NCBI RefSeq assembly: GCF_009905375.1
Contig: NW_027417080.1
Location: forward strand, 1-64,000
Source of the DNA: Apium graveolens
Taxonomy: Eukaryota; Streptophyta; Magnoliopsida; Apiales; Apiaceae
Direction: 5' to 3'
Length of the DNA: 64,000 bases
Part shown: positions 17,692 through 61,589 of the stretch, one piece after another
How the letters are laid out: each line of letters opens with the position of its first letter
Position numbering within the stretch: position 1 is the stretch's first letter
Made by a program: the position numbers and the translations under genes
The notes under the pieces: model-generated
What the model saw: the letters and a program-made list of their open reading frames with translations, nothing else
What the model was told of the DNA's origin: nothing
Databases searched by the model: none

Positions 17692-18716
17692 TGTTATTCC
17701 TAGTGGACTAACAATGAGATTTACAGAAGGGGGGTTGAATGTAAATCTCAAAACTTTTTCAAGTTTTGAGCAGTTTTAAAGGCTTTGTGTTCAAGATAAA
17801 CAAGTGTGTGAATTGCTTTAAGCTAATACAGACAGATATATATTCAAGCACTAATGTAAAGAACACAACAGACCTTAAAAACTTTTCTGGTGGATTGTTG
17901 TTCCACCAGAGATGGTATTTCAGAAAATCTGTGATTCAAGATGTTGATCACAGCTGCATCCTAGTACAAACTAGATAATTTTTCTCTCAAGATTTTTCTA
18001 AACAGGACTGGAAAAATTCTTATCTAATTACTAGCTGCTACTTGGTTTATATATCACCAAGTGTACAAGTGAAGACAAAGATAAAAATACAATAATAAAA
18101 TAAGTTCTCTACTTGTTTCTTCTCCATATCACTCAAGTACTTTGTTGACTATTGCCTCTTTGTACTAGAGTAGAACGGCTGCTTTTTCTGATGTTCCTGA
18201 AATTAGGCTTCCATATTTCAGTTATCTCTGTCAACCCATGTGACTCTGTCTGCTTTTACAACTACCACTTATCAACTGTTATTTAACAGAACATCCGTTG
18301 AAGCCTTCATCCGTTGATGGCTTTATCCGTTGATGTGTTAGCAGTTGAAGCTCTATCCGTTAAAACTTTGGAGACATCCGTTGAAGCTTTGTTTCTCATC
18401 CGTTGAAGGTCTTTAAGATATCCGTTGATACCACTTCATTTATACAAAATTACAAGGCATGAAATATTTACAATTGGCCTTCCTATTTGCATATCTTCTA
18501 GTAGTCAACATGACTTATATTTTCTCTCAACTTCTAAGAATTATATCTTAAATACAGAGACTGAAATGTGCTACAACACTAGACTTATTTCTAAGTAAAG
18601 CTGCACCATCAACGGATAGCCAAAGTGGTCTTATCCGTTGAGGCTACAAACACTAAACTTCTACTTAAGTGTTTTGTTAAACATATCATTAAACTAATGC
18701 ACATATATTCCTAACA
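17692..18716 (-). repeat. Element A 3' LTR
   Basis: 1,025 bp, TG...CA bounded. Carries 8 exact copies of ATCCGTTGA/TCAACGGAT, mostly in 18293-18427, and a TATA-like TATATAAA on the minus strand at 18046-18055. Confidence 0.93.
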
Positions 18717-18735
18717 ATCTCCCCCTATTTATGTC
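18717..18735 (-). other. Element A polypurine tract
   Basis: Minus strand ...AAATAGGGGGAGAT abutting the 3' LTR; the same sequence abuts the 3' LTR of element B. Confidence 0.88.
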
Positions 18736-18904
18736 TATAAGAATTGTAGACATAAATTCAGGGTTAACTTGATGATAACAAAACACTTAACAAATATATG
18801 AATTGAAACTAAGTAGAAATTTAAAAGTGCTGCAAAAGTGTATGTACTAGGAGGTAATTGAAGATTTACAGAATTTCCAAGGGTGCTCCTCTAGTCTGAG
18901 CAAA

Positions 18905-21900
18905 TCATCTTTTTCTTCTTTGTTCCCTTGTTTTCTTTCCTAGCCCTTTGTCATTTTCCTCAATTTGGAGTTGGAGTTGTCTGTAGAATTCAGCTTCATC
19001 TTCATCACTGATATCCAACTTAGATTGCATTTCCTTGAGAGTTTCATTGCTGGCAATCTTGAGTTGGTCTTCAAGTCTGAAAAATCTTCTGACTCCTTTA
19101 TCATCTCTAAATTCCATCAACCAATGAGGTGATTTGTGGATTGTAATTCCCCTTTCTTGAATGAGTAAAGTTCTGGGCAAAGCATTGGGCTCCCTCCAAG
19201 TTTTCCTTATGTTGGCAATCTTGTTGAGAATTTCAGTCTTGGCAGTCCTGGTAAAGCCAGAACCCTTTTGTATGGCTGAAAAGACTCTGATCAAGGTAGA
19301 GTAGCCTTCATTCAGAATCCTGTGGAGAGGCCATGTTCTTTCCCCAGCTCCTTTGTATCTGAACACCAATCTCTCTGGTAGCTGTCTGTAGGCAGCTATT
19401 CCCCTTACATCCTCTAGCTCATCCAGATAAAGTTCAATGTCTGAAATTTCTTTTATGTCACAGATGTGAACATAATCATCTTTAGAAATGGGTGGCTTAG
19501 GCTTAGGTTTTTGTTTTTGAGTGAATTTCTTAGAGGTTAGGGGAGGTGTAGATTTGGATTTTCTTTTCTGTTTCTTTGGTAGTGGAAGAGTGGTTAAAAA
19601 GATAGGCAATTTGATGGTGTCCCAATCAATAGGTTCCTCTCTTGGGATGATTAGTTCACCATGGATGTTTATAGTGGGATCAACAACACAAGGTTCAGGT
19701 ATGGAGGGTAGTGGTTTAGATATTGATTTAGTTTCTTCAGTGTTATCTTCACTCCTTCTATGTGCCTTGGCCTTTCTTCTGTTTCCCTTCTGCCATTCCT
19801 CTCTTTCCTCCATACTCTCACCAAATATACTCCCAAAAACCTCATCTAGGTTTGCAATCTTGTTTTCACCCCTGACTTCAATTCCTTTCTCTCCTTCAAC
19901 TTGACTTGACTTTAGCTGTTGTTCAAGCTTTGCTTGTGCTCTTTTGTCAGCCTTGAGTTTTTCAGCTTCTTTCTTCAACCTTTTGGTTTCTTCCCTCTCG
20001 GCCTTTGGGAATTTGGGATGTCCTTGCATCACACAGATCCTCTTTCTCTCTCTAAAGATAATGGCCATTTTCATTCTTTCAACTATGTCCTTGGTCTCCT
20101 TGTACTTTATGATGTTAGCACCCAAAACTTTGTCTTCATCAGGCTTTGGAAGAGGAAAGTCCACTTCTTTCATCTGAGCAAAGTCTAGGGGGTTCTTTGT
20201 GGAGTCCTTGCTGGATCTAGTGTTGGGCTTGAGAACTATAGGTTTTAGATTCTTGAAAGAAGTCTCTCCAACCTTATTCCTCCTTTCTGGCTTGTGCTCC
20301 ATAATGATTGGTTCAACCTTTATGCCATGTTTCACAGATATTGATTTATCTTGTGTTGAGCCAAACACTTGTTGCACCCTTTCATCAATTCTCCTCCTTT
20401 GCTCTTTCACTTGAATTTCAGCTGCTGCTAGCTGGATTAGGTCAATTCCATCAGGCTTTCCTTTGATTTGCATAATTGGAGAAGTAGTGATGGCAGGAAC
20501 TAGCACTTTAGATATCTGGATTTTTGTAGATGGCTCTCCTTCCCCTTCCCTTTTTCTCTCCCCCTTTTTGTTATCATCAAGGAGAGGGGTCAAGCCTTGT
20601 GCCTTTGCCAGCTGCATAAGTAGACTTGTTTGAGATTGTTGGTTGTGAAGAATGCTGGCCACAGAATTTTCAATAACTTGGACTCTGTCTTCTAACTTAG
20701 CCAGCCTCTTTTCAGTATTTGAATCCTTTTTCAATCTCAACAATAAGTCCTTCATTGTACCATAGGGCATGACTGAATCCAATTTTTCAGAATTGTAGGA
20801 TTTCAAGTCAGCAATATCCTTCTTGAGTTCATCCACACTCAGATTCTGTCTTACTTGCTGCAACTTCATGAGATGCAGTGAGTCCAGGTGAGCTGTAAGG
20901 ATTGCCTTGGTACCAGCATGTGAAGTTTTCTGAATGGCCTGTTGGATAGTACTGATTTGTTTGACTAAGGAGACATTGAATTGCCCTTGATGTAGACTCC
21001 TTTGTCAAGGCCCATTCAGGTAAATTTGGAATAAAACTAGGGCCTTCATCTCCCCCTAAGTTCATGCTTCCATCAAAAGAAACAGAGTCATCATCATCAG
21101 AATTTACTCCAAATTCTTCAGATGACTCATCAGCTGTAGAAGGCATCTTGTTAATAGCAGCTTTATCCCTTTGAAGAGATTCTGTTGTATGTACTAGATG
21201 TAGTGTCTTTTCTGCCTCCTCATTGCCCTGAGCAGCCAACAACTGATAGGCTGACACAGGATGAGTAAAAGTGTCAGCATCCAAGGAAATGTTATCAATT
21301 ACAGCTTTGTAATATTGCTGAAATTGTCTTTCCTTTTCAGCATCATCCACAATCATTGACTCACTAGCAATGGCTGGATCCACCCTTAATCTGTTGTACC
21401 TGCCTTTCTCTCTTTTTCTCTATATTCTTGCATCAGGGGCTCCCCCTGGCTCACACTCCTCACTTCCTCACCTTCACCTACTAAGGTGGTACTCCTCTCA
21501 CTTACTTTTGCCATGCTGGAAGAAATAGCATGCATATTTGAGCTCTCAATCTCTCCTTTTGCCTGGGTGCAACCCAGCCTCTCACTCAAATTGTCACTCC
21601 CTTCCCTCAGTCCTAAAAGTGATTGTACAGTAATCATGTCTTCTATACTTGGAATTGTTTCAGTTGTGTGTGTAGAGACTATCAACGGATATGAAATAGC
21701 CGTTGAAGGTGACACTGATGGTATCAACGGATAACTGCTGTTAAGCTTATCCGTTGAAGAACAACCACTTGTCAACGGATGAGTGATATCCATTGAAGAA
21801 GGAAAAGAAGTAGAAATTGAAAGTGATATAACTGTTGAATCTGTGTGGATTGATTTGAGTTTTGGTGACACAGATCCTTCAATTACATCTGAAAGAATTT

Positions 21901-23450
21901 GCGGGTGATCCAACAAATCATCTAAAAGATGATGATCACCTGTATTTGAGTGGGGCTCCTCTCTGAGTTGTAAAGAGGGAGAATCAGGAATTGATGGGAA
22001 TAACATATCCACATCCAGAGATGGTGATGAAGTGTGTGGTGATTGATGTGTGTTAATTGTGAGAGAATGGGGCTGTGACTCCACATTTGTTGGAGCCACA
22101 TCAAACTGAGTTTGAGAAGGCATAGATACAGATGGATGTATCTGTGCAGTGTGTGCACCCTGTGTAGAAGATTGGGTTCTAGCCCTCTTTCTTCTAATAA
22201 AAGCTTTTGTTGGTGAGTGTTTGGCTTCTGTAGTCCCTCCCTCGTTTGTTCTGTGTTCCTGGTTGGGAACTATTTTCAATAGTTACATCCTTTTGGGAGA
22301 ATGCAGCTAGGGATGTGCTAGTAACCTTTTCAACCACCACAGCTTTTTGAGAAACTGTGGCTTGGCTAGCTTGGGAAACACTTATCTCTCCTTCCTTATC
22401 CTGGGGGTTTCTTTGATGTTCACCCCTCCCCTCACCACTCATACCCTGTTCACTCCCCTCAGGGTTAAGGGTAGGTGTTACAACTATTGTCTTTTGAGAA
22501 ACAACAGAGGTGGTTTTCTTTGTCTTTGATTTTGAAAGTTTAGTTTTGGTGACCTTGGTAGGAATCTGTTGGGGCACTGTCACAGATTCCATGGGCACAC
22601 TAGAAGATAAAGAAATAGAGGGGTTGGAAGAAGTAGGAGTTGTAGAAACAATTACCTCACTTACCTGAGGTGCATCCATGATTGGTAAATATACCAATGG
22701 TACACTGCTGTTGAGATCCATTCTCAATAAATCTGCAAGAACTCTTTTCTCTTGTGCCCAGCACTTGAGTTTATTATTCTCATTGGTTATGACCAAACCT
22801 TCAGCAACATGGTTAGCCAATAACATAAAGAATCTAGCATAATAGATGTTATTAGGTCTATTAGCTTTGTTACCTAATCTAGTACCCAATTCTAGCATAA
22901 CATAATTGCTAAAGTTAAAATACCTATCAGAAACAAGCATATAGAGCATATTAACAAGAGATGAAGTTATGGCATCAAAATTACTAATTTTCCCAGAGAA
23001 AACCTTGATAAAGGCATCCCCAAGAAAACTCCATTCTTTCCTAAGGCATTTTCTTTTAATACTCCCTAAACTAGCAGAGTTAAGAGAATAACCTATGGAA
23101 TCTAACATGCTGGATACATCATTATCAGTGTGTGGTGTCATGACATTGTTCTCAGGCAATTTAAAACATGCTAGTAAATCATCACAGTTAATACAGTGAT
23201 TTTTACCTTTGAGAGTGAAAGAGATGGTCATATCTATGGAGTTGAACTCAGCAGTTGTCCAAATCTCCTCAACTACTTCACAGTAAATCGTTGGGGCTTC
23301 CAGCATTGCATAGCTAAGTTTACAGTTTTTGATGAAGTCCATCATTTTGTGATAATCTGAGTGGGCTTCATTCTTTGCTACCAAAGCTATGAAATTGTTC
23401 TTCTCATAGATGAACCCAGATTGAGACATAATTTTTACTACTGGTGCCAT
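18905..23450 (-). pseudogene. Element A env-like ORF (extra 3' gene)
   Basis: Extra gene between pol and 3' LTR, as in SIRE-type elements; function unknown. Start chosen at MAPVVKIMSQSG (ATG 23450), the start shared with element B. The N-terminal globular domain (to about 22700) recalls a domain common in plant transposon-derived proteins (recollection, unverified). A Ser/Thr/Pro-rich middle and a Lys/Glu-rich coiled-coil-like C-terminal half follow, with a conserved end block (FRYKGAGERTWPLHRIL, then HKSPHWLMEF). Three frameshifts (near 22230, 21385 and 20850) split it; the last 654 codons (20869-18905) are open. No convincing transmembrane segment, so 'envelope' is positional only. Confidence 0.8.
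21681..21800. repeat. Motif cluster inside element A env-like ORF
   Basis: TCAACGGATA, GCCGTTGAAG, TCAACGGATAA, TTATCCGTTGA, TCAACGGATG and a variant ATCCATTGA; read as STDKLN, YPLI and similar peptides. Confidence 0.85.
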
Positions 23451-23559
23451 TGTTGTAAGTAGAAATTGCAGAGAATAACTTGAAGGTTTTGCAGAGAGTA
23501 AATGGTAAAAGCTTTGAAGTTTCAAGAAAGCGTAAAGTAAAAATGAAAAATCAGAAGGG

Positions 23560-23568
23560 CTTATATAC
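23560..23568 (-). promoter_or_regulatory. TATA box of internal promoter, element A
   Basis: Minus strand GAAAGTATATAAGCCC, about 110 nt before the env-like ATG, followed by a pyrimidine-rich leader. The same context (GAAAGTATAAAAGCCC) is in element B at 49804-49810. Confidence 0.6.
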
Positions 23569-23700
23569 TTTCTCAAATTAAAAAGCATAAATAAAAGATT
23601 AAACAATAAATATATGTAAGTGAGTTTCAGCCGTTTAAGAATAAACTGTAAGTATTCTAAAAACTACCTTTAAAACAAATACATACAGTTGTATGTATGA

Positions 23701-23925
23701 GTATCAACGGTTAAGAAAATAGAATCAACGGCTGTAAGACACCTGAATCGACTGATGTGACATTTCAACGGATAAAGTAAATTGTCATCCGTTGAAAAGT
23801 ACTACAGTTTTATCCGTTGACGGATAAAAATTCCAGAAATGTATATGTCTTTCAACGGATAATGAACATCCGTTGATGGAACAATTTTGACTTTCAACGG
23901 ATAGGAAATATCCGTTGATGGAATA
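23701..23925. promoter_or_regulatory. ATCCGTTGA/TCAACGGAT cluster upstream of env-like ORF, element A
   Basis: Seven exact 9-mers plus two CAACGG partials in 225 bp between pol and the TATA box. Forms inverted pairs, e.g. TCAACGGATA (23894-23903) with TATCCGTTGA (23909-23918), loop of 5, and TCAACGGAT (23852-23860) with ATCCGTTGA (23868-23876), loop of 7. Confidence 0.8.
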
Positions 23926-24005
23926 ATCTGTGTTAAGAAGTCAAATTTATTCTAGCAACTAATACATTTCAGGCTTCAATTCAAATTGCAATAAGGACAT
24001 AAATT

Positions 24006-25151
24006 TTATGAGTAATTAAGCATACCTAGCTCACTTACCAATCTTGTGAATGTTGATTCATCAAGTGGCTTGGTAAATATGTCTGCAATTTGTTGTTCAC
24101 TTGGAACAAAATGTAGTTCCACTGTACCATTCATGACATGCTCCCTGATGAAGTGGTACTTGATATCAATGTGCTTGGTCCTTGAGTGCTGCACAGGAAT
24201 CTCTGTTATGGCTATGGCACTTGTGTTGTCACAAAAGATAGGAATTTTGTCAACATGAAGTCCATAATCAAGGAGTTGATTCCTCATCCATAACACTTGA
24301 GAGAACAGCCTTATTGACAAATTCTTGAACTCAGTTCCATTGTCACTCCTGATATTCCTAACCTTCAAGTCAGGATGATTATTGACTTGCCTGATGTGAT
24401 TGATAATGATTTCACCTGCTTCATCCTTTGATCCAAGAAAATAGACCCATGAAAACTTTGAGAAATCATCTACAATCACTAAGCAATATCTTTTTCTTGC
24501 AATTGACAATACATTGACTGGTCCAAACAAATCCATATGCAGCAGCTGTAATGGTTCATCAATTGTTATTTCAAGCTTCTTTTTGAATGATGCTTTCCTT
24601 TGTTTGCCTTTCTGACAAGCATCACACAAACCATCCCTTGAGAATTCAACTAGAGGAATTCCTCTAACTAAGTCCTTTTTGACTAGATCATTCATTGTCT
24701 TGAAATTCAAATGGGATAGCTTCTTGTGCCATAGCCAACTCTCAACTGAACTTGCTTTGCTGAAGAGACAAGTAATAGATTCTGCATCTGTAGAGTTGAA
24801 GTCAGCTATGTACACATTCCCTTTTCTAACTCCAGTTAGAACCACTTTGTTGTCTTTCTTGCTGGTGACAACACAGGCTTCTGAATTGAAGGAAATTGTA
24901 TTCCCTCTATCACATAGTTGACTGATACTCAGTAAGTTGTGCTTGAGACCATCAACTAATGCAACTTCATCAATGATGACATTCCTTGTTGAAATCAAGC
25001 CATATCCCATAGTAAACCCTTTGCTGTCATCTCCAAAGGTTATGCTAGGGCCAGCTCTCTCCTTAAACTCAGTGAGCAGGGAGAAATCTCCTGTCATGTG
25101 TCTTGAACAACCACTGTCCAAGTACCATAGATTTCTTCTTTTTCCCTGCAC
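24006..25151 (-). pseudogene. Element A pol with RT deleted, in-frame fusion
   Basis: 381-codon open frame. Protease motif [12 protein letters not shown] at the start, GAG-pre-integrase HHCC region ([18 protein letters not shown]), and integrase core with LHMDLFGPV and DNGTEFKN. The sequence then jumps near 24300 to the RNase H end (LWMRNQLLDY, HIDIKYHFIRE, IADIFTKPLDE). The equivalent of 50.54-52.74 kb in element B is absent, removing the integrase Glu, the IN-RT linker and the whole RT. The junction stays in frame, so a fused PR-IN-RNase H-tail protein could be made, but it could not reverse-transcribe. Confidence 0.9.
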
Positions 25152-25164
25152 ACCATAAGATCAA

Positions 25165-27578
25165 TCAAGTTGATTTTGGTACCCAAGTTTCCTTGGGTCC
25201 ATTCTTGTTAGCCTTTCTCCTAGACTTCATTCCTCCTGCATCTTTAGACTTAGGTAACTTTGAGTCAACCTTGATCTTAGATGTAGTTGGTTGAGGTGTA
25301 GGGTTAGTCACAGAATCATTTAGCACATTTGGAATTTGATAAGGCATGGATTGTGCAAGCATGTTATTCCATATTGGCATATTGTATGGCATTTGAGGCA
25401 TACTAAATGCAGCAAGATAAGGATTGTTAAAATATGGCATGTTTGCAAAATGTGCATAAGGATTCTGTTGAGACATAAAAGGCATAGCATGCAGAGGTGA
25501 TGCAGACATATTAGGCATGAAAGAGGGCACAGGTATGGGAGTTTTCTTAATAGATTTGCAATTAGCAGATAGATGATTAACAATACTATAATGCACACAG
25601 CTTTTTCTAGGAGCATACTTATCAGGTGTGTAATTGTTATGTTTGTTAACCCCTACCTTCCCATTTCTATTAGATTTCCTTTTAGTTTCCTTTTTATCCT
25701 CAACCACTTTGAGCCTATTCTTTAACTGTTCTAAGGTCATGTGTCCTATATTCACCTTACTGAAATCTTTGGATGTGCTTGCTTCTTCTTTGACAAAGTT
25801 CTTGGAAGTTGAACCAAACTTTTTGTTGAGTTTCTTTAGATTTTCACTTTTAGAAACATCTGCCTGTTTTAATTGAGGAACCTTCAACGGATGCTCCTTT
25901 TCTTCCTTCAACGGATAACTTTCATCATCCGTTGATTCCACATCCGTTGACAGCCCATCAATTAATTCCAGTTTCTTTTTGTTTTTATCCCAGGCAGTCT
26001 CACAGAATGATTCAATTCCTTGGACCTTGGAAATTTGAGCACTAACATCCCTAGATGTCTTTCAGGCTTTAATCACCTCTTGCTCTCTCTCTAATTGATT
26101 GGAAAGTATTTCTACTTTCTTAACAGATTAAGCTAGTTCATTTTCAACAGATATACAATATAGCTTAGTTTTCTCTAGGTCAATCAACTTATCTTCTAAC
26201 ACAGCATTTCTATTACTTAAAAACAGATTGTTCTCTTTAATCCTACTATTTTCTTTAGCAAGAGATTTAAGAGACACACGCAAATGATACAATTCAGTAG
26301 ACATGTCATTAAAAGCATCATTGCACTCTTCTTTAGTAAGCTGTGTTAAATCAGTAGTGATTACATGGTTGCTTGATGAACTAACTTCATTTTCCTCAGA
26401 ATCAGCCATGAGAGCCAAGTTGACATATTCCACACTTTCATCCTCTTCTTCTCCATCAGCTGCCCAGTCTTTTTCTTGAGTAATGAAAGCCCTCTCCTTT
26501 TGCTTGAGCAGATCAAAATATTTCTTTTTGTAATCTACTTGGTCAAATTTCTTCTTTTCAGAAGTTGGCTTTCTGCACTCATTTGCAAAGTGTCCACTTA
26601 TACCACAATTGAAACACTTGAACTTGGATTTGTCCACCATGTTCTTATGAGGTTTAGTGGCTCTAATGTTTTTCCTAAATTTCATCTTTGCAAATCTCCT
26701 GGACAGAAATGCAAGATGCTCATCAATACCATCAGAGTCATCTTGGCTGGAGTTGTCTTCATTCTCAGCAACTTGCTCCTTACCCTTGCTTGATTCTGAT
26801 TTGCTTGTGCCATCTTTGGAGGTTGATGTAGATCTCACAGTTTCTTGTCTGCATTCTTTCTCATTTTCAGCTACCAAGGCAACTGAACCTCCTTTCTTTC
26901 TTCCCTTCTCCAATACCTCATCCTGTTCCAGCTCTAGTTCATAAGTCTTCAAGATTCCATATAATCTTTCAAGAGTGAAGTCCTTATAATCTTGAGAGTT
27001 TCTCAAGGAGACAGTCATGGGTTTCCATTCCTTTGGCAAGGATCTTAAAAATTTAAGATTTGAATCCTTCACCTGGTACACTCTACCATACAGCTTCAGT
27101 CCATTCAACAGCTTTTGGAATCTATTAATGTGTCATTTAAAGATTCATTTTCTTCAAAATGAAAATACTCATACTGTTGAATGAGAAGCTGCATTTTGTT
27201 TTCTTTTACTTGTTATGTACCTTCACACAGTAGTTGAACTGTGTCCCAAACCTCTTTGGCAGTTGTGCAATTTATCACATTATCAAACATATCTTTGTCA
27301 AGACCATTAAACAAAATGTTTATAGCCTTCTTATCCTTGTGGACTTCTTCTGTGTCTTCCATTGTCCATTCTGCTCTAGGTTTTGGAATGGATTGACCAA
27401 CAGCAATTGTGGCCGTAGCAACTGTGGCTACTTTGTGGGGAATGTGAGGACCATTCTCAATGCAGTTTATATAACCTTCATCTTGGGAGAGTAGATGAAG
27501 GTGCATTTTCACCTTCCAATGGTGATAACTGTCTTTGTCAAGAACTGGGATTTTTACTCCAATATCCTTCTTACTCAT
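25165..27578 (-). pseudogene. Element A gag
   Basis: Capsid/nucleocapsid of a SIRE-type copia element, in pieces: 27578-27213 (start MSKKDIGVKIPVLDKD), 27108-26128 (FLRSLPKEWKPMTVSL, zinc knuckle CFNCGISGHFANEC) and 25941-25165 (second, partly degraded Cys/His cluster, end GPKETWVPKST). Compared with element B, a stop or frameshift lies near 27210 and another near 26100. Several ATCCGTTGA motifs lie in the 25883-25950 segment. Not functional as it stands. Confidence 0.88.
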
Positions 27579-27625
27579 CTTTGTTAGTTTCCAAGATCTT
27601 TAAACTCTTTGTGTGTCAAGAGCTT

Positions 27626-27637
27626 GCTCTGATACCA
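27626..27637 (-). other. Element A PBS, tRNA-iMet
   Basis: Minus strand TGGTATCAGAGC, two bases inside the 5' LTR. Confidence 0.93.
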
Positions 27638-27639
27638 AT

Positions 27640-28664
27640 TGTTATTCCTGGTGGACTAACAATGAGATTTACAGAAGGGGGGTTGAATGTAAATCTCAAA
27701 ACTTTTTCAAGTTTTGAGCAGTTTTAAAGGCTTTGTGTTCAAGATAAACAAGTGTGTGAATTGCTTTAAGCTAATACAGACAGATATATATTCAAGCACT
27801 AATGTAAAGAATACAACAGACCTTAAAAACTTTTCTGGTGGATTGTTGTTCCACCAGAGATGGTATTTCAGAAAATCTGTGATTCAAGATGTTGATCACA
27901 GCTGCATCCTAGTACAAACTAGATAATTTTTCTCTCAAGATTTTTCTAAACAGCACTGGAAAAATTCTTATCTAATTACTAGCTGCTACTTGGTTTATAT
28001 ATCACCAAGTGTACAAGTGAAGACAAAGATAAAAATATAATAATAAAATAAGTTCTCCACTTGTTTCTTCTCCATATCACTCAAGTACTTTGTTGACTAT
28101 TGCCTCTTTGTACTAGAGTAGAACGACTGCTTTTTCTGATGTTCCTGAAATTAGGCTTCCATATTTCAGTTATCTCTGTCAACCCATGTGCCTCTGTCTG
28201 CTTTTACAACTACCACTTATCAACTGCTATTTAACAGAACATCCGTTGAAGCCTTCATCCGTTGATGGCTTTATCCGTTGATGTGTTAGCAGTTGAAGCT
28301 CTATCCATTGAAGCTTTGGAGACATCCGTTGAAGCTTTGTTTCTCATCCGTTGAAGGTCTTTAAGATATCCGTTGATACCACTTCATTTATACAAAATTA
28401 CAAGGCATGAAATATTTACAATTGGCCTTCCTATTTGCTTATCTTCTAGTAGTCAACATGACTTATATTTTCTCTCAACTTCTAAGAATTATATCTTAAA
28501 TACAGAGACTGAAATGTGCTACAACACTAGACTTATTTCTAAGTAAAGCTGCACCATCAACGGATAGCCAAAGTGGTCTTATCCGTTAAGGCTACAAACA
28601 CTAAACTTCTACTTAAGTGTTTTGTTAAACATATCATCAAACTAATGCACATATATTCCTAACA
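27640..28664 (-). repeat. Element A 5' LTR
   Basis: 1,025 bp, collinear with 17692-18716. Minus-strand TATA box at 27994-28003; motif cluster upstream of it at 28241-28375. Confidence 0.93.
28241..28375. promoter_or_regulatory. ATCCGTTGA motif cluster in element A 5' LTR
   Basis: Six or so ATCCGTTGA copies in 135 bp, 240-380 bp upstream (minus-strand sense) of the LTR TATA box; an inverted TCAACGGATA ... TATCCGTTaA pair follows near 28557-28590. Core CAACGG is a MYB-type site (inference). Confidence 0.7.
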
Positions 28665-34650: not shown

Positions 34651-34659
34651 ATCTCCCAC

Positions 34660-37447: not shown

Positions 37448-37650
37448 AACGTACAAAGTAAATCTGTAAATGATAAACACATAACAACACTTAGCAAATA
37501 TTCGATTTCATTTCAAAACACTATATGAATCGGGTCTTTATTCATAAGTGGCTCCCACTAGTTTTCCTAATTTATTCAACCCCCTACATGAAAAATTAAG
37601 CATTCATAATGCTAGTGGGAATAGGGATCCTACATTTCATTACACAACCC

Positions 37651-37952
37651 CGGCTGTGGCATGAAACGCCATGTAATGTTCAATAGGCAGACAACTCTTG
37701 TCAATTACATCTAATGTTATTCCCTAATCAAACTTTAGCCTCTTGAATAATTGAGTCACGGCTGTGACATGACAAACTCAATATTCTAAGTCAAGTCTAA
37801 CCCAACATTCCGTACAATTGAATCAGTCCCCAAAGGCCCACGGCTGTGGCACGTAACGACCTTTAGATTCTTATTCAATGTACACATCTCTATGTAATAG
37901 ACAAGTATTTCTTATTTCAAAATCAAAGCCCTCGGCTGTGGCACGAAACGAC
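37651..37952. repeat. Dispersed 20-bp repeats in element C leader
   Basis: CGGCTGTGGCACGAAACGAC-type sequence at about 37651, 37759, 37841 and 37933, spaced 82-108 bp, between gag start and 5' LTR. Confidence 0.85.
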
Positions 37953-40946: not shown

Positions 40947-40965
40947 ATCTCCCCCTATTTATGTC
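40947..40965 (-). other. Element B polypurine tract
   Basis: Minus strand ...AAATAGGGGGAGAT next to the 3' LTR, identical to element A. Confidence 0.88.
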
Positions 40966-43879: not shown

Positions 43880-44000
43880 CATCAACGGATAGGGAATATC
43901 CGTTGAAGTGGAAACTGATGGTATCAACGGATAACTGATGTTAAGCTTATCCGTTGAAAAACAACCACTTGTCAACGGATGAGAGATATCCGTTAAAGAA
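43880..44000. repeat. Motif cluster inside element B env-like ORF
   Basis: ATCAACGGATA, TATCCGTTGA, ATCAACGGATAA, TTATCCGTTGA and TCAACGGATG within 120 bp, in both orientations. The homologous element A segment is 21681-21800. Confidence 0.85.
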
Positions 44001-48300: not shown

Positions 48301-49364
48301 TTTTATCAAGCTTTTACTATAAAATTCACGTTATCATCACAAAATACACAAAAATGTAACAAGGCAACAAAACACCATCCATTCGGCTCCTATCAAGTCA
48401 TGGCCGAATGGATTAGGGTAAGAACAACATTTCATAAGTGTAACACTCTTATGTCTAGCCATTCTTGACCCTATGATACTATATCTCATGGTGAAAGCCT
48501 TAGATTCACAAGAATCAAGGAGGTTCACTTTGAGTTTAACAAAAACATCACCATGCAAGGTCAAAACATAGGTTTTTCACTCTAAACTTTTGAAATATAT
48601 ATAAGAATAACATATAGGGAGTAAAATTACTTGGATATAAGATGATTGTTTGAGTGAGAGTTGAAGAAAGAAGGGGATGGGGCTCGGTTTTGGTGGTTGC
48701 CGAGAGGGGAGGGGAAAAACCGAGAGGTGAGGGAGGAGGGAGGGAGAAGAGAGTGAAGTGGTGGGGTGAAGTGAGGTGATGATCACTTCTTGGACTTGTT
48801 TTTATGCATTGATTTGACTATAATGTGAGTGGGTTTGAGATTTTACAAGAGTAACCCTCCAATATAGTTAGGTAGATTTGCATGCAAGGGTAAAGGGGTA
48901 AATTGGTTAGCAAAATGTGAGTTAGTGGGGTTGAGAATGTCTTCTTTGCCCTTTGATTAAATAGAAGAGAGTTTGCATGCAAGGTTATTCATGTAATTTG
49001 ATAAATATGACAACTAAAATTTATAATGATTTATTTTTATAAAATAAAATAACAAGTTCAAAAATTATAAAATTTATACCATAAATTAACTTGTATTTTT
49101 AGAGACTTTATAAAATCATTTTCAAAATTTGTGAACAAAATGCCTTTTAAAAGAAGATTTTTCCAAAGCTTAGAATATTCCTTATAAATCAAAAATAAAG
49201 AAATTAAATAAACTCTTGCTTTGAAAAATCATATACTACCCAAAGCAAATTTATAATGCAGAAATTTTCACTCACACAAACGTACAATCATTGAATATAT
49301 TTTCATTTGACTTAATATTATACCAAATTCACAAATAATATTACATAAAATGTCGGTCGTAACA
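45313..49364. mobile_element. 4.05-kb solo-LTR-like insertion in element B env-like ORF
   Basis: Bounded by TGTCACACCCCC...GGTCGTAACA and the perfect 5-bp duplication AGAGA (45308-45312, 49365-49369). No internal direct repeat of its ends, no PBS, no gag/pol. Best read as a solo LTR of a long-LTR (probably gypsy) family, with a non-autonomous element as alternative. A purine-rich block at 48640-48790 stands out. No gene was recognised inside. Confidence 0.8.
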
Positions 49365-49803
49365 AGAGACATCTTTATCAGTGTGTGGTGTCGTGGCATT
49401 ATTCTCAGGCAACTTAAAACAAGATTGTATATCATCACAATTTATGCAATAGTCCTTACCTTTGAGAGAGAAGGCAATAGTCATATCTGTGGAGTTGAAC
49501 TCTGCAGTTGTCCAAATCTCCTCAATCACCTCACAGTAGATGGTTGGGGCTTCCAGCATTGCATAGCTTAGTTTGCAGTTTTTGATGAAGTCCATCATCT
49601 TGTGATAATCAGAATGGGCTTCATTATTTTCAACCAAAGCTATGAAATTATTCTTTTCATAAACAAATCCTGTTTGAGACATAATTTTGACTACTGGTGC
49701 CATTGTTGTGAGTAGAGGTTGCAGAGAAAAACTTGAGAATTTAGAGAGAAAGAGAATAAGAATTGCAAGAAAGCGTAAAGTGAGAATAAGAGTTCAATTG
49801 GGC

Positions 49804-49944: not shown

Positions 49945-50165
49945 TATCAACGGTTGAGTAAAAGAATCAACAGTTGTGACTCACTTATAGTAACTGACGT
50001 GACACTTCAACGGATAAGGGAAATAGTTATCCGTTGATGAACAACACCATTTTATCCGTTGAAGGATAAAATTACCAGAAATGTATTTGTCTTTTAACGG
50101 ATAATGAACATCCGTTGATAGAACAATTTTGGCTTTCAACGGATAGAGAATATCCGTTGATAGGA
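49945..50165. promoter_or_regulatory. ATCCGTTGA/TCAACGGAT cluster upstream of env-like ORF, element B
   Basis: Inverted pairs TCAACGGATAA (50007-50017) / TTATCCGTTGA (50027-50037) and TCAACGGATA (50136-50145) / TATCCGTTGA (50151-50160), plus further single copies and a decayed pair near 50094-50119. Confidence 0.8.
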
Positions 50166-50244: not shown

Positions 50245-53200
50245 TTATGAATAATTAAGCATACCTAACTCACTTACTAATCTTGTGAATGTTGATTCAT
50301 CAAGTGGCTTGGTAAATATGTCTGCAATCTGCTTTTCACTTGGAACAAAATGAAGTTCCACTGTACCTTTCATCACATATTCCCTAATGAAGTGGTACTT
50401 GATATCAATGTGCTTGGTTCTTGAGTGCTGCACTGGATTTTCAGTAATGGCAATGGCACTTGTGTTGTCACAGAATATTGGAATTTTGTCAACAGTCAGA
50501 TCATAGTCAAATAGTTGATTCCTCATCCATAGTATTTGTGCACATCAACTACCAGCAGCAATGTACTCAGCTTCAGCTCTTGATGTGGAAACAGAATTCT
50601 GCTTCTTGCTTAACCATGATACAAGCTTGTTCCCTAGAAATTGACAGGTGCATGTTGTTCTTTTCATGTCTAATTTGCAACCTGCATAATCTGCATCTGA
50701 GTAGCCAATTAGATCAAAACCAGACTCTCTAGGGTACCAAATTCCTAGATTTGGAGTCCCCTTGAGATATCTGAAAATTCTTCTAATAGCCACTAAGTGA
50801 GATTCTTTAGGGTCAGCTTGAAATCTAGCACAGAGACATGTAGAAAACATTATATCAGGTCTACTAGCAGTTAAATATAAAAGTGAGCCAACCATGCCTC
50901 TATAACTTGTAATATCCACAGACTTTTCAGCCTTGTTTAATTCAAGCTTAGTGGCAGTGGCCATGGGAGTTTTTGCGGGTGAACAATCCATTAAGTCAAA
51001 CTTCTTTAAAAGATCATAAATATATTTAGTTTGACTAATGAAAATTCCACCACTAACTTGTTTAACTTGTAAACCAAGAAAGTAAGTTAGTTCTCCCATC
51101 ATGCTCATTTCATATTTACTTTGCATTAATTTATCAAACTTTTTACAAAGCTTATCATCTGTAGATCCAAATATAATATCATCTACATAAATTTGTACAA
51201 GTATCTTAGAGCCATTAACATTTCTAAAGAAGAGAGTTTTGTCAACAGTACCTCTTGTGAAGTGATTATCTAGAAGGAACTTTGACAAAGTCTCATACCA
51301 GGCTCTAGGTGCTTGCTTTAGTCCATATAGTGCCTTCAACAGATAATACACATAGTCTGGAAAATTTGGATCTTCAAAACCTGGAGGTTGGCTTACATAA
51401 ACTTCTTCCTCCAATTCCCCATTTAGAAATGCACTCTTGACATCCATTTGATAGACTTTGAAATTGGCATTAGCTGCATAGGCTAGAAAGATTCTGATGG
51501 CTTCAAGCCTGGCAACTGGAGCAAATGTTTCATCAAAATCTATTCCCTCTTGTTGAGAATAGCCTTTAGCAACCAATCTGGCTTTATTCCTTATGACAAT
51601 GCCATTTTCATCCATCTTGTTTCTGAATACCCATTTTGTGTCAATAGAACTCTTGTTCTTTGGCTTGGGTACCAACTTCCATACTTTGTTCCTCTCAAAT
51701 TGGTTTAGCTCCTCTTGTATTGCTAAAATCCAATCTGGATCCAATAGAGCTTCTTCCACTCTCTTAGGTTCCTCCTTTGATAGAAAGCTACTATACAGAC
51801 ATTCATCTTGAGTAGCCCTTCTAGTTTGTACTTTTGATGTAGCATCACCAATGATCAGTTCAAAAGGGTGATTCTTGGTCCATTTCCTTTGAGGTGGTAG
51901 ATTAGCCCTAGATGAGGTTGCCTCAGTATTGTCATGATGTGAGATAGAATGTTGATTTGTTGAAACTCCCCCTGAGTTGCTGATCCTTTGAAAGGAATTG
52001 GGAGCTCTATCAACTGATGAAGTGAATTGATTATCCGTTGACAGACTGTGATCAACGGATGCTTCATTATGAACTTCAACGGATGATGCACTTTGTCTTT
52101 CAACGGATGCTGCATTGCTTCTTTCAACGGAAGCTGAAATATGACTTTCAACGGATGCAGCATTCTGTGCATTATCCAAAGGCAGATTCTGAATTCTTCT
52201 TGAGATGCCTTCTTTATCATTCTCATCTTCACTATCATCACAGTATATCTCAATGTTGTCAAATTTGAGTCCTTCATGATGTCCCTCATCTGTTAGTCCA
52301 TCAATCTTTTTATCATCAAACACAACATGTACAGATTTCATGACAATGTTGGTTCTTAGATTGTAGACCCTATATGATTTTCCAGCAGAATAACCAACAA
52401 ATATTCCTTCATCAGTCTTTGCATCAAACTTCCCTTTGTGATCAGATTGATTCCTTAAGATGTAGCATTTGCAACCAAAGACATGTAGAAAGTTTAAAGT
52501 TGGTTTTCTTCTCTTGAATAATTGATAGGGAGTCATGCATTTTGCCTGATTGATTAGAGAAATATTCTGAATGTAACATGCACAGTTAACAGCCTCAGCC
52601 CAAAAATAAGTTGGGAGTTTTGACTCTTCAAGCATTGTCCTTGCAGTTTCAATTAGTGATCTGTTCTTCCTTTCTACCACACCATTTTGTTGTGGAGTTC
52701 TTGGAGCTGAGAACTCATGCATGATCCCACTTTCTTCACAGAACAACTTCATGGTTGAATTCTTGAACTCAGTTCCATTGTCACTCCTAATATTCCTTAC
52801 TTTGAAATTAGGATGATTGTTGACTTGCTTGATATGATTGATGATGATTTCACTAGCTTCATCCTTTGATCCAAGAAAATAAACCCATGAAAACTTTGAG
52901 AAATCATCTACAATCACTAGGCAGTATCTTTTCCTTGAAATTGACAATACATTGACTGGTCCAAAAAGATCCATGTGTAGAAGTTGTAGTGGTTCATCAA
53001 TTGTAGATTCAAGCTTCTTACTGGATGATACTTTCTTTTGCTTTCCTTTCTGACAAGCATCACACAGTCCATCCCTTGTGAATTCCACTAGAGGCATTCC
53101 TCTAACTAAGTCCTTTTTGACTAGATCATTCATTGTCTTGAAATTCAAATGGGACAGCTTCTTGTGCCATAACCAACTTTTAACTGGACTTGCTTTGCTG

Positions 53201-54312: not shown

Positions 54313-54380
54313 CCTTCAACGGATGCTCCTTTTCTTCCTTCAACGGATAACTTTCATCATCCGTTGATTCCACATCCGTT
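54313..54380. repeat. Motif cluster inside element B gag
   Basis: TCAACGGATG, TCAACGGATAA, ATCCGTTGA and ATCCGTTGA within 68 bp; same arrangement in element A at 25883-25950. Confidence 0.85.
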
Positions 54381-56384
54381 GACAATCCATCAATTAATTT
54401 TAACTCCTTTTTGTTTTTCTTCCAGGCATCCTCACAGAATGATTCAATTCCCTGAATGTAACACCCCCAAATCCGGGGTCGGGGATCCGGGTTGTCACGA
54501 GTTCCATTTCCCTTAATAACACCCAATCTTAATAATTAATCAACTACTCTGTACTGTGACCCCACAATAAACACACACACCACAAGTTATAGTCTCAGAG
54601 ATGAACATCCAAAAATAATCACAAGTCATTTTATTCCACAATTATCTGCCAATACACCTTAAAAGGTTTTCTGAATAAATTTACATTTTCTTTGCCATTA
54701 TTACAATTCATAATATACATAAATCTGGTACATCGAAAGTTGAAAGCCTAGCCTATTGGTAGTTCCTACCTCAGCTACAGCGACATCAACGCCTATAGGA
54801 AACTGCGGAACGTTTCCTATCCGCTCGCGAATCGGGAGCTTGGTCATGTTCATCTTTTCTATCTGTTGTTGTGTGATGAAAGAAGAAAGTAAGGGTGAGC
54901 AACAAGCCCACCAAAATAATATGTATAATGATTTACAGTATATGAGCCTTCTCTTAGTACTCATGAAAGTCTTGGTCAAAAGAAATGAACCAAGTTTGAT
55001 ATCTTAATGCGATGAAGTCGCAAAATATTCAGTATATATACATATATACTTTTCAAAATCTTGGAAGTCCTCTTCCATGCATAATATACACAGAGTTCCA
55101 GTTTATAACTGTATAAAACTATCGTTGCAAGGTGATCTCATATATCTAACCTTGTCTCAACGTTTTTCTGAAAATCTTTGACATGCATAAGATAATCATT
55201 TACTAGATATAAGTTTAAAAGATGAAGTTACAAGATACTCCAATATACTTATATCTTTTCCAAATATTACTTGAACTACCACGGTTCAAGTTATAATTAG
55301 TTTCAAAAGTTCATCACATAGATGAGACTACAAGACCAGATTTGAATAGATTAAATCTTTAAAATATCATCAAAATAAAATGAAGTTACGAGATACTTCA
55401 TTTAATGCAAACATCATTTTGAAAACTTGACCCTGCCAACACTCAACAATCGCCCAACCGTAGCCTTTCTATCGAAGTGCTCTGGGTAGTGTTGCAGAAA
55501 TATCCAATTGGATGATGAACTCATTACGGGAGTTTGCCGCGCCAGGAAGACCACTTACGATGATCAGTCGTAGTAGTACAACCCCACCATTTTCTACATG
55601 TGGAGGAGAACCTGTCGGATTTACTTGTCAACCGAACACTGAACTCCTAAGGAATGGACCGCCTTAGCGGAACTTCCGGGCCATTTGGGCCAATATAATA
55701 AGGCTGGGCCGACGCTACTCGACCACTTACGCCACTCCTAGTTCAGATGAAATCCATGACTCTGAAACGTAAAGCTCGTCCCCCCTTTCCCCAAGTAGAA
55801 ACTTGTTGGTACGGCTCCACCAAGAAGTCGTATCTAGTTGAAAAGGAAAACTCACCAATATTTCCCAGGCGATGCCTGTTAATGGATTAACTTGTTCCAA
55901 GAATTTTACTTCCCGAGTGTTGGGTAAGTAATCAAAAACTCTTTTATCAGAATAACAACCTTGTTGCGAATATAAAATACACCACAGAGCCGGATCCCTC
56001 AGGTTTTGAGCGAGTATTTAAATCCCCTTCGAAAGGAGGATCTTAAATATAAAAATGAGTTTTGGGATCCGCTCTAACTTTTAAAAATTATTTTGAAGAC
56101 TCGAAAACATTTTTAAGAATGTTTGGAGTGATGCTGATTTAATAAAATAAATCAGTCCCAATATATAAAAATATCTGAATATTATTATTTAAATAATATT
56201 CCCATAAAGAATAATCTTTATAAAAATAATTGAAGTAGATGTTGTAAAACTTATACTTGAAATGACTCTTAAATAACCAAAGATATACTTATACGAAAGT
56301 AATATCTTTATTTGAATAATCAAAAGTAAGTTTGATTATCGACACATTATTCTTTAATAAAATAAAGAATATTATTAAATAATA

Positions 56385-56660
56385 AGCGGAGTTATAATAC
56401 CTCGAATGAATATTATAAATAATATTCATTAAATAAAATAACGGAGTCATACATCCTCAAATGAATATTTAAATAATATTCATCAAATAATATGAACTGA
56501 GTCATAAGCCCTCGAATAAATATTCAAATAATATTCAATAAATAATATAAAGGAGTCATAAGTCCTCGAATGAATATTCAAGTAATATTCAATAAATAAT
56601 ATAAATGAGTCATTAGTCCTCGAATGAATATTCAAGTAATATTCAATAAATAATATAAAG
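56385..56660. repeat. About 54-57-bp tandem repeats in solo LTR
   Basis: Five units of the form CCTCGAATGAATATTCAA ... ATAATATAAAGGAGTCATAAG, the last units nearly identical. Confidence 0.85.
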
Positions 56661-56705
56661 TTATCGAATAAACCTTATTCGAATAATAGTTTTGAAAACT
56701 ATAAC

Positions 56706-56741
56706 CATACATATATATAAATATATATATATATATATAAT
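56706..56741. repeat. TA microsatellite
   Basis: Runs of ATATATAT interrupted once by AAAT. Confidence 0.85.
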
Positions 56742-59700
56742 CTACTCGGGATCCTCGACTCCCGGTTTTAGAAAATGTTTTCACCTTTGGGTCCCTATAC
56801 TAAGGGTATATGCAAATTGTCGCTATTTTCTAGCATAGGTATTATCAACTGAACTAACAGATATATATTTCAAGAATATGAAATAGGCATACATATATAC
56901 CATATCACATGCTACAATATATCGCAAGAATTTGCTAAATAACCATTATGCATCTATCACAAGATAATGCATGTACAAATGTATACATCACAACAACAAT
57001 ATAACGGATAGAAAACTTGCCTGAGTGCTCCCGGATAGACTTAAGCTTAGAGTGGGTCCGATAACCTATGAACAACAACATAAGTCGGAATTAAACCCCG
57101 GTCGCTTAAGAAACTAGACTTTAACCATTTAGAGTCCTAGCGTTCGCTTTCGCGCTTAACGATTTACTTAAGTCGCTCGAGTACCCTCGGCTCCCCCATT
57201 TTTAATAAATTAACCATTACGAGTTTTAAGGCGATTCTTTCGCAAGTATATTACCAATTGCCTAATCCACTTTACATAATTGTTTCTTACCCCAATTAGT
57301 CATTTAAGGTCCTTAACCAAGGTTTCAAAGTAAGGAGAGGGGTAATGATTCGTTCGCGAAACGTCGTTACTTAAAACGGCTGTTTCTCCTAAACCGTACA
57401 TCGGAATCAAACGAACTACATATCAAAACGAAGCTCGTAACATGAACTATCTAAAAATGGCAATGGTCAAAACCTAGCAGGGAGTTCTCGGGTCCTAATG
57501 TTATGAAAAAAAGCAGTCTAAAGTAAATCGGACATTATGACGGCTATGTTTACGCGATTTCCCAAATTTATACCATTCCAAATCCACCACAATTCAACCC
57601 CAATTCATAACCAAATCAAAACTCCATCCATACTACATCATAACAGCCCCAACAACTCAACATTAATAATTTATACTTATTCCCCACATGAACTAAAAGC
57701 TTTACTTAAGTTCTTTAACTAATTATCAAGATTTACAACTCCAAAAACACCACAAAACCAACTAATCTCTACAAACTCAACCAAACTTTAAACAAACAAG
57801 CATCATGCTTCCCATATATCATATCAATCATTCATTCCTAATTACTCAAAACTAAAGCTAGGATTTGGAGTTTATACCTTCTTGAAGCTTCTTAATCAAT
57901 GAAAGATCCTTGGAATGCCCATGGAAGCCTTGATCTATGCTTAAGCTACCTTGAACTTTCATAAAAATCAAGAAAACCAAAGTTATTTCTTGAAGGTTAC
58001 TATTCACCATCTTCTTCCTTAATTTATTGGAAGAGATTGTGAAGGAATTAGAAGTTTAAACTTATAGGATATCCATATCTATGTACAAGGAACCTTAGAT
58101 AATTACCTTGTGATTTAACAATGCTTGGAACTTGATTTTTGATTTTTCTTCCTTTGAAAAAGAAGAAAAGCCGAGAGCAAGATGATGAGAATGAAATGAT
58201 TTTGTGTTTTTTGATTTTTTTGGCTTAGCTTGGTTGTTTTTTGTTTTGTTTTTGGTTAATTACCTTAATAACCTTATATTTGTGTGGTTATAAACCAACT
58301 ACACCTCCTCCTTCCCTATGTCATGCTTGCATCACCTTATTATGTCATCATCCCTAACTTGTCCTCTCCTTATTGGTTGGATGACCTCATCATCCCTAAC
58401 CTCCTTGATTAACTTCCTAATTGTTTGCCTAATGACCGCTGATCTGTTATACGGTTCGCTTAACTTTCGTTTTCGTTTATCGTTTGAGGGATCATACCCA
58501 GGATCTTATTACTTGGGTTTCCTTAACCTTTCTCAATGCATTATATTCCTTTTATGATCCTCTCTTATAATCCTTTAATTTAAATCCTTTTTATCCTGTT
58601 ACCTTATACTCAATTCTTTCCGTATCTAGTGGATTTCCGGGAAAAATCAAAGTGTTCGGAATTGGATTCTGACGATCTTTACATACACTTATATACCACA
58701 TAGAGTACTAATAATATCCCAGAAGATCAATAACAGAACCCCTATAGTGTGACATGAAAAGTTTTCTTATTCAGCATAATCTGCAAAATCACTATTCATA
58801 AGGGTTTCAAAAATTTCCAAAAATTGGGGTTATTACACTGAACCTTTGCAATCTGAACACTAACATCCCTAGATGTTTTCCAGGCCTTGATTACCTCTTG
58901 CTCACTTTCTAACTGTGTAGAAAGAATTTCTACTTTTTTAACAGCTTCTGCTAGTTCACTCTCAACAGTCAAGCATTTAAGTTTTATCTTTTCAAGCTCA
59001 ATTACCTGATCCTCTAACACAGCATTCCTATCACTTAAAAACACATTATTCTCCTTGATCCTAGTATTTTCTTTTGCTAGTGATTTAAGGGAAACACGCA
59101 AATGATATAATTCATTGGTCATATCATTTATGGCTTCATTGCATTCATGTTTAGAGAGCTGAGAGAGATCAGTAGTAATTACCTGGTTGCTTGATGAACT
59201 AGTTTCATTTTCATCAGAATTAGCCATCAGGGCTAGGTTGACATATTCCACATCATCATCTTCATTTACCCCATCTGCTGCCCAATCATCTTGAGTGAGA
59301 AAAGCTCTTTCCTTTTGTTTGAGCAAATCAAAATACTTCTTTTTGTAATCAACTTGCTCAAATTTCTTTTTCTCAGAATTTGGCTTCCTACACTCACTTG
59401 CAAAGTGTCCACTAATGCCACAGTTGTAACATTTGAACTTTGATTTGTCCACCATGTTTTTGTTTGGCTTAGTGAACTTTGTGTTTTTCCTGAACTTCAT
59501 TTTTGCAAACTTCCTGGACAGAAAGGCCAAATGTTCTTCAATATCATCAGATTCATCCTGACTGGAATTGTCTTCATCCTCAGCAACTTGCTCTTTACCC
59601 TTGCTTGATTCTAATTTGCTTGTGCCAATTTTGAGACTTGGCATTGTCTTCTCCTCATTCCTGGCTTCCATCTTCTCACTGTCAGCTACAAGAGCAACTA

Positions 59701-60473: not shown

Positions 60474-60485
60474 GCTCTGATACCA
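60474..60485 (-). other. Element B PBS, tRNA-iMet
   Basis: Minus strand TGGTATCAGAGC two bases inside the 5' LTR. Confidence 0.93.
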
Positions 60486-60487
60486 AT

Positions 60488-61589
60488 TGTTATTCCCAGT
60501 GGACTAACAATGAGATTTACAGAAGGGGGTTGAATGTAAATCTCAAAACTTTTTCAAGTTTTGAGCAGTTTCTAAGGCTATGTGTTTGAGTGATCAAATG
60601 TGTGTGAATTGCTTGAAGCTGATGCAGACAGATATATATTCAAACACAAATGTAATGAGCACAAAGAACTTAAAAACTTTTCTGGTGGATTTGTTGTTCC
60701 ACCAGAGATGTGTTATTTCAGAAAATCTGTGATTCAAAGAATTAAATCACAGCTGCTTCCTAGTACAAACTAGATGATTTTCTCTTTTGATATTTCTAAA
60801 CAGCTCAGGAAAATTCATATCTAATTACTAGCTGCTACTTGGTTTCTATATCACCAAGTTTACAAGTGAAGACAAACTGTAAAATACAATTGAAAAGATT
60901 CTTCACATGTTTCTTCTTCATTTCTCTATCCAATGCAATCTAGGATAATCTGTAAATCTTTGAATACTTCCTTGTTTGCATCAGAATGGAAATGCTGCAT
61001 TTTCTTGATTCCTCCTAGAGGCTTCCACATTCCAGTGTGTCTCTGTCAACCCATGTGCCTCTGTCAGCTTGTGAATTGTCACTATCAACTGCTAATGAAC
61101 TAAGCATCCGTTGAAGCTTTCATCCGTTGATGCCTTATCCGTTGAGGCTTTATCCGTTGAAGCTTTATCCGTTGATGCATTATCAGTTGAAGTCTTTATC
61201 CATTGAAGCACTTATCCGTTGATGGATATTATCCGTTGAAGCATTAGAGACATACGTTGAAGCTTTGTTTCTTATCCGTTGAAGGTCTTCAATATCCATT
61301 GACACTTCTTCACTTATACAAAATTACAAGGCATGAAATATTTACAATTAGCCCTCCTATTTGTACATCCATTAGTAGTCAACATGACTGATTATTTCCT
61401 AACAACATCTAAGAATTACAGCTTGAAACCAGAGAGTGAAATGTGCTACAATACTAAACTTATTGCTAAGTAAAGCTACTCCTTCAACGGATAGCCAAGA
61501 TGGTCTTATCCGTTGAGGCTACAAACACTAGATTTCTACTTAAGTATTTTGCTTAACTTATCATCAAACTAATACACATATTCCTAACA
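60488..61589 (-). repeat. Element B 5' LTR
   Basis: 1,102 bp with 10 exact motif copies (cluster 61106-61305, inverted pair 61484-61516), one extra repeat unit compared with the 3' LTR. The TATA box is altered (minus strand GATATAGAAA at 60843-60852). Confidence 0.94.
61106..61305. promoter_or_regulatory. ATCCGTTGA cluster, element B 5' LTR
   Basis: Eight exact copies plus three single-base variants (ATCCATTGA twice, ATACGTTGA) in 200 bp; one unit more than the 3' LTR. Confidence 0.8.

Follow-up and report, generated by a model that had tools for sequence, protein, structure and literature searches.

What makes a single nine-base word pile up by the dozen within one family of retrotransposons, in non-coding and coding DNA alike? 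This question is raised by a stretch of celery DNA (Apium graveolens; NCBI RefSeq assembly GCF_009905375.1, contig NW_027417080.1, positions 1 to 64,000 of the forward strand), which is called the window throughout and which holds two related elements on the minus strand, element A (17692-28664) and element B (39861-61589). The word, ATCCGTTGA, is a non-palindromic 9-mer and was counted on both strands of the 64-kb window. Overall, 72 exact sites are found where 0.29 are expected, and none of 100 shuffles reaches so high a count, which rules out chance or base composition as the cause. It is the most frequent 9-mer in the window, with microsatellite words ranking behind it. All 72 sites lie within the two elements, and none is found in the two later insertions of element B or in the five other window stretches counted, in accordance with the statement of an initial annotation of this DNA that such clusters are absent outside the family. 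One mismatch allowed, 28 further sites appear, 18 of them in the clusters of exact words and five outside A and B or in a B insertion. The motif is slightly longer than nine bases: among 60 distinct flanks, a T or C precedes the word in 98%, and the base two positions after it is A or G in 96%.

Element A is recognized as a Sirevirus-type Ty1/copia element by the ends of its long terminal repeats (LTRs), its primer binding site, its polypurine tract, its polyC signal, the blocks common with B (about 79-89% identity) and its gag and integrase domains, and element B is placed in the same family by the shared blocks, its LTR ends and its target-site duplication. The LTRs of both are bounded by TGTTA..TAACA, and both elements have a primer binding site with TGGTATCAGAGC, presumably that of the initiator methionine tRNA. 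The target-site duplication is a perfect 5 bp in B (GTCTA) and matches at four of five positions in A (ATTAC/ATTAT). Copia-type domains are detected in B (Retrotran_gag_2, zf-CCHC, rve and RVT_2); those of A are gag and integrase only, with Retrotran_gag_2 just under the cut-off. Element A is without about 2.2 kb present in B (junction at 24292-24296, B equivalent 50532-52733), the reverse transcriptase (RT) domain included. Element B is interrupted by its two insertions (about 45305-49365 and 54455-58838), each of about 4 kb and the second with a 54-bp tandem repeat at 56364-56658. Between the two LTRs of A, 14 of 1025 aligned positions differ, and between those of B 16 of 1086, giving ages of about half a million years at a substitution rate of 1.3e-8.

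Signals known from Sireviruses are also present. A polyC-rich signal, AGAAGGGGG, is found in each of the four LTRs, on the plus strand and 33 bp in from the 3' end. The polypurine octamer AGGGGGAG is located right before the 3' LTR, where on the element strand AGGGGGAGAT adjoins TGTTAGG in both elements; in Sireviruses this octamer starts 10 bp upstream of the 3' LTR (PMC2829016). Element-strand copies of AGGGGGAG are found at 18719, 20558, 21050 and 21440 in A, and at 40949, 43246, 43637 and, in pol, 51966 in B. Their number fits a Sirevirus but their position does not, with no upstream copy within 0.5 kb of the LTR and the upstream copies sited in or near the env-like open reading frames (ORFs), more distant from the LTR than in the Sireviruses of PMC2829016.

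In the LTRs the words are numerous. The 3' LTR of A (17692-18716) has 8 exact words (18293-18428 and 18609-18641), and the LTRs of B have 12 (3', 39861-40946) and 10 (5', 60488-61589), the B arrays being partly a 15-bp tandem repeat. These numbers, together with the seven words before the env-like ORF of A, are those that the initial annotation had counted; the 5' LTR of A (27640-28664), with 7 exact words, was missing from it. Most of the LTR words share a single orientation (7 of 8 and 6 of 7 in A, 11 of 12 and 9 of 10 in B). They occupy offsets 77-417 of 1027 in A, with TATA-like matches at 665 and 876 and one at 274 between two groups of words, and offsets 75-461 of 1088 in B, with TATA-like matches at 725 and 937. 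The second non-coding location is the spacer between pol and the env-like ORF, with 7 exact (23765-23918) and 2 one-mismatch words in A (cluster 23704-23918), and 6 exact and 2 one-mismatch words in B (49947-50160). In the internal clusters, both orientations are mixed and inverted pairs are frequent.

This placement, ahead of the TATA box within the upper LTR half and again in front of the env-like gene, is that of the family-specific repeated motifs reported for Sireviruses in the LTR and in the linker before the env-like gene, at 8-32 copies per element (PMC2829016, Table 3). The likeness extends to a short CGG/CCG motif specific to the family, its high copy number and its CpG-rich clusters. 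Since LTR and pre-env words are thus an established Sirevirus feature, that part of the pattern is not new. The known motif has a palindromic CGG-CCG unit, whereas here the word is a non-palindromic 9-mer whose inverted pairs are mainly internal and whose LTR arrays keep mostly one orientation.

The words are also found inside the genes. The gag cluster has 4 exact words in A (25884-25950) and 4 in B (54316-54382), read as STD, STD, YPL and HPL in both. In the env-like ORF there are 4 exact and 2 one-mismatch words in A (21682-21796; HPL, STD, YPL, YPL) and 5 exact and 1 one-mismatch in B (43882-43996; HPL, STD, YPL, STD, YPL). In pol, the integrase-RT linker of B has a cluster (51983-52156) with 5 exact words (52033-52156) and 3 of one mismatch, read as SVE/SVD and STD, and built mostly of a 24-bp tandem unit. 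The initial annotation had placed words in gag, pol and the env-like ORF of both elements, which is correct for gag and the env-like ORF of each and for the pol of B; the pol of A has no site, because A is without the stretch that carries both the RT domain and the pol cluster in B. Words in gag, in the integrase-RT linker and within the env-like ORF, on both strands and in three codon registers, are new beyond what the available part of PMC2829016 describes for repeated motifs. According to the same source, additional copies lie where ENV starts in Osr10 and HOPIE, and CpG islands are predicted in the pol of Osr9 and Osr8, which might hint at words in pol.

The coding sites bear on whether DNA or protein is kept. 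Antisense, the word reads STD; in sense it reads HPL or YPL in the second register and SVE or SVD in the third, and the sense register that would yield a stop is unused. As one word gives peptides as different as STD, xPL and SVE/SVD, the constraint does not act on a single peptide. In a comparison of two copies, A and B, 22 of 23 sites of A recur unchanged in B; of the other 9-mers in those aligned stretches, 258 of 1192 do so (Fisher p 9e-14, a nominal value given that the control 9-mers overlap). Columns within words are identical between A and B at 62 of 63 positions in the spacer (other columns 221 of 305), 72 of 72 in the LTR (387 of 478) and 72 of 72 in coding sequence (507 of 596). Rare codons tell the same: proline is encoded by CCG in 10 of 10 codons inside exact words versus 1 of 250 outside words and near-words, and threonine by ACG in 8 of 8 versus 2 of 316, where the frames run from stop to stop with some overlapping, the in-word figures are forced by the choice of exact words, and A and B have a common ancestry.

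We have also considered that the words might have no function and have spread as a minisatellite or as repeats at the protein level. The B LTR arrays with their 15-bp unit and the B pol cluster with its 24-bp unit are indeed tandem repeats, but in the gag, spacer and env-like clusters words stand on both strands and in several registers, and A and B share their layout with words near-perfectly conserved, so that this explanation is hardly credible. Protein repeats as a cause are ruled out for the gag and env-like clusters by the mix of registers and strands, and are a possible contributor in pol. On the whole, the element-wide cis code proposed in the initial annotation is well supported by words that occur in non-coding and coding DNA, on both strands and in three registers, that are kept as DNA and that bring in rare CCG and ACG codons.

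The words also hold most CpGs of the family. Counting A and the examined parts of B, 72 of 105 CpGs lie in exact words and 85 of 105 in words of at most two mismatches. For A the numbers are 30 of 47 in exact words and 37 with words of at most two mismatches, the remainder having an observed/expected ratio of 0.03; for the B parts examined they are 42 of 58 and, with near-words, 48, with ratios of 0.00-0.04 elsewhere. The ratio is 0.33 in the first B insertion, about 0.84-0.87 in the second, and 0.47-0.92 in five other stretches. Either the words are shielded from methylation and deamination, or they are restored by selection, or both. Clusters of repeated motifs likewise define CpG islands in Sireviruses (PMC2829016), and CpG islands are described for Del elements (PMC4029996).

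To see beyond the two copies, relatives were collected at the protein level: 49 for the env-like protein, 538 for pol (the best 120 of which were listed) and 49 for gag. Among the matches listed, the closest named relatives are from Apiaceae, namely Apium graveolens, Heracleum sosnowskyi and Daucus carota, with more distant families also in the pol search. Homologous stretches were extracted from 31 env-like, 39 gag and 103 of 121 pol sequences (48 of these shown), the env-like set including fragments and at least one false member (P0046). Among the env-like stretches, 17 of 31 have at least one of the peptide forms counted, and among the gag stretches 33 of 39, where single short peptides can be chance. 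Peptides that the word would encode stand at homologous places in relatives. At the protein level this speaks against a confinement of the motif to the two copies, a confinement that would have refuted the proposal of the initial annotation.

Which word each relative uses was approached by back-translation, scoring every 8-mer (32896 in all) on both strands and in three registers against residue shuffles. For gag, env-like and pol of element B joined, ATCCGTTG ranks first of 32896 (separately third in gag, 9 in pol and 51 in the env-like ORF). A group of celery proteins that carry PTD/PMD and HPS/YPS peptides has ATCCGTCG at rank 3 (5 in env-like, 3 in gag, 649 in pol) and ATCCGTTG at rank 298. 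A carrot-type group places TCAGTTGA at rank 9 (6 in gag, 35 in env-like), and in hogweed gag group a, ATCCGTTG ranks second. The celery group (8 of 31 env-like, 6 of 39 gag and 4 of 103 pol stretches) and the carrot-type group (env-like P0008, gag P0187 and P0184) were picked by eye after the peptides had been seen, so their ranks are not independent of the selection. Nor do the named words lead the rankings: the best two for celery are TCATCCGT and CATCCGTC, which overlap at the same site, the best for celery env-like alone is ATCCATCG, and the best for the carrot-type group is ATTGATGC. The gag relative P0184 (41 members) is filed under the fungus Rhizophagus irregularis, presumably because root cultures brought plant DNA into fungal assemblies.

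A stricter multi-register test was run on 18 sets with 100 shuffles each. For the window the best word is CGTTGAAA, followed by TCCGTTGA and ATCCGTTG, with a score reached by 2 of 100 shuffles, and for the carrot-type group it is TCAGTTGA, reached by none. The test fails for celery, where 13 and 6 shuffles in 100 score as high, and the single sets P0056, P0058, P0059 and P0192 are not significant (43, 34, 23 and 30 of 100). It also has uninformative positives, since for the serine-rich linkers P0065, P0101 and P0062, 0-5 of 100 shuffles match the score that the palindrome CGAGCTCG gives. The integrase-RT linkers of the distant relatives P0067 and P0071 are rich in NPD repeats, and their top word is ATCCGGAT (0 and 3 of 100), a palindrome and therefore counted double.

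If a word changed at bases 7 and 9 jointly, a bias in the residue after the peptide would be predicted, and such a bias is found: the residue after PL is A-start in 25 cases and G-start in 2, and after PS it is A-start in 12 and G-start in 19 (p 2e-5, with identical contexts counted once, 17 ambiguous rows dropped and kin sequences treated as independent). Counter-examples are PTD with PL in hogweed gag P0196 and STD beside PS in celery gag. Celery gag proteins show both STD/YPLK and YPSD/YPSN forms, so that one host would contain two words. These proteins suggest that other lineages may use other words (ATCCGTCG, ATCAGTTGA), changed at several sites together; as protein data, the changes are leads about the DNA. 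A link of celery pol and env-like lineages by RT identity was not obtained, the fragments being too short.

Taken together, it is likely, judging from the letters, that the ATCCGTTGA arrays are DNA-level arrays for protein binding and this family's version of the Sirevirus repeated motif. A sequence-specific DNA-binding protein would bind the clusters in the LTR, the pre-env spacer, gag, the integrase-RT linker and the env-like gene, and would activate, or open the chromatin of, the LTR promoter and the body of the element; its main array would be the one ahead of the TATA-like matches in the LTR, with the other clusters distributed over the rest of the element. We infer the binding, the activation by binding and the identity of the protein. 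As to that identity, the MYB-type core consensus is CNGTTR or, on the other strand, YAACKG, and ATCCGTTGA contains such a core (CCGTTG/CAACGG), as the initial annotation had pointed out. With this core, and with MYB control of Ty1/copia LTRs already under discussion (PMC6762207), a host MYB-type factor is the leading candidate and would be the most likely reader. That paper discusses MYB sites in the LTR of Rider and cites the activation of Tto1 by NtMYB2; the MYB-type core in a Ty1/copia LTR is alike in those elements, and the difference here is the dozens of copies per element, genes included.

Host MYB sites may even be the whole explanation, a stress-related R2R3-MYB or a cell-cycle MYB3R activating the LTR, with the internal copies as extra enhancers or as an internal promoter for the env-like gene; this is a serious possibility that still falls short of probable. 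The word inferred for carrot also fits YAACKG with its CAACTG core, but the gag sites are an odd location for a plain promoter element. The more specific idea of the initial annotation, a match to the M-phase mitosis-specific activator (MSA) element, is weakened, as neither of the words suggested by the relatives' proteins, ATCCGTCG and ATCAGTTGA, retains the AACGG core of that element; by protein the core is absent from the celery and carrot-type words, and hogweed gag group a has the AACGG-bearing ATCCGTTG at its second rank.

Several observations weigh against the reading as protein-binding arrays. In the reverse comparison, 22 of 27 sites of B are exact in A (269 of 1206 other 9-mers), the misses being four LTR sites, mostly in units that A lacks, and one env-like site. 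Hogweed gag group b has ATCCGTTG at rank 3988, and the hogweed env-like set at 21584, though TCCGTTGA ranks 47 there. The celery word suggested by the proteins (CGACGG) does not fit the YAACKG core and would run counter to a single conserved MYB reader. Finally, the internal clusters form strong predicted RNA hairpins.

The last point bears on a role in RNA, where inverted words would form hairpins in the transcript for packaging or export or as a source of small interfering RNA, as discussed for the palindromes of maize Sireviruses. Four internal stretches fold far better than shuffles (z -6.94, -5.83, -7.21 and -4.53), and according to PMC10760457, Bousios 2016 found that palindromic clusters of Sireviruses have an excess of small RNAs. 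Two LTR stretches, however, fold only as well as shuffles do (z -0.31 and 0.19), which rules out hairpins as the sole reason for the words; the LTR words lie mainly in one orientation, and hairpins need no identical word in every cluster. We regard an RNA role as an improbable explanation of the words; beside protein binding, the internal clusters may have a separate one.

Returning to arrays that bind protein, the reader could instead be encoded by the element itself or by a partner element and co-evolve with its word, as VANC proteins do with VANDAL motifs: it would bind the dispersed words and strip silencing marks along the whole element, and lineages would switch protein and word together. 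By analogy this is possible but rather unlikely. It is suggested by words spread over the element body, beyond the promoter, by the concentration of CpG in them, by the ranks of ATCCGTCG and TCAGTTGA in their groups, and by lineages that seem to use different words within the same host. A co-evolving reader of this kind agrees with the CpG pattern, with words reaching into genes and with the word changes that the proteins suggest. VANC21 binds a 9-base motif, its targets forming tandem repeats, and VANC6 targets differ in motif (PMC5735166). VANDAL elements are alike in their arrays of a short motif along the element, in tandem expansion and in motifs that differ between related families (PMC5735166, PMC10398659). 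They are unlike in that their motifs are non-coding with a known VANC protein, whereas this is an LTR retrotransposon with many of its motifs in coding sequence. Against such a reader also stand the celery groups chosen by eye, the pol-only rank of 649, RT fragments too short to link the celery pol and env-like proteins and the failure of the strict test, and celery gag retains STD where a full switch predicts PTD. In its fullest form the proposal is an element-wide recognition code with a co-evolving factor as its reader, lineages in one plant using different words that are replaced at many sites together; a retrotransposon would then have a VANC-like way to recognize itself or to counter silencing, which by analogy is unlikely.

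The env-like protein offers no candidate DNA-binding domain for such a reader: no credible domain is found in the env-like ORFs, and matches to Pfam at E up to 1 are weak and implausible. The AlphaFold model of the env-like relative P0001 is poor (mean predicted local distance difference test score, pLDDT, 42.8), and no PDB match with E below 0.001 is obtained with this poor model. In the model, the word-cluster stretch lies in a long region of very low confidence, which may be disordered, followed by a C-terminal helical stretch. In P0001 and in five of eight other env-like relatives, hydropathy stays at or below 1.6 in every window. A basic stretch resembling a nuclear localization signal is present in seven of nine. 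None of these features is evidence of DNA binding.

A search of literature full text for ATCCGTTGA together with retrotransposon shows no evidently related work, and none is matched by title or abstract for motifs in Sirevirus coding sequence, which does not prove absence. A word that sits in coding sequence in three registers and holds most CpGs of the element gives a clean handle, a single 9-mer whose binding partner can be sought. Should the word changes suggested by the proteins prove real, a comparison of lineages within one celery genome would tell a host factor from an element factor, and the activation of these plant elements and their escape from silencing would become directly testable.

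Paired-word patterns were also searched for in other DNA, with 78 and 49 matching stretches in viral contigs and at least 118 in genome contigs. No related locus is found in viral contigs with B pol and an alignment as queries. Many of the viral contigs among L199-L244, mostly of about 53-61 kb, have an inverted pair of the word with a common total length of 35 bp, and contig L098, of a candidate division WOR-3 bacterium, shows paired words five times within about 800 bases. In the window itself, a run of 19 C is located at 9-27, and two other LTR-type elements are present at 829-6444 and 33050-39812, with repeat pairs about 98.5% identical, the former showing Retrotrans_gag and retroviral protease domains.

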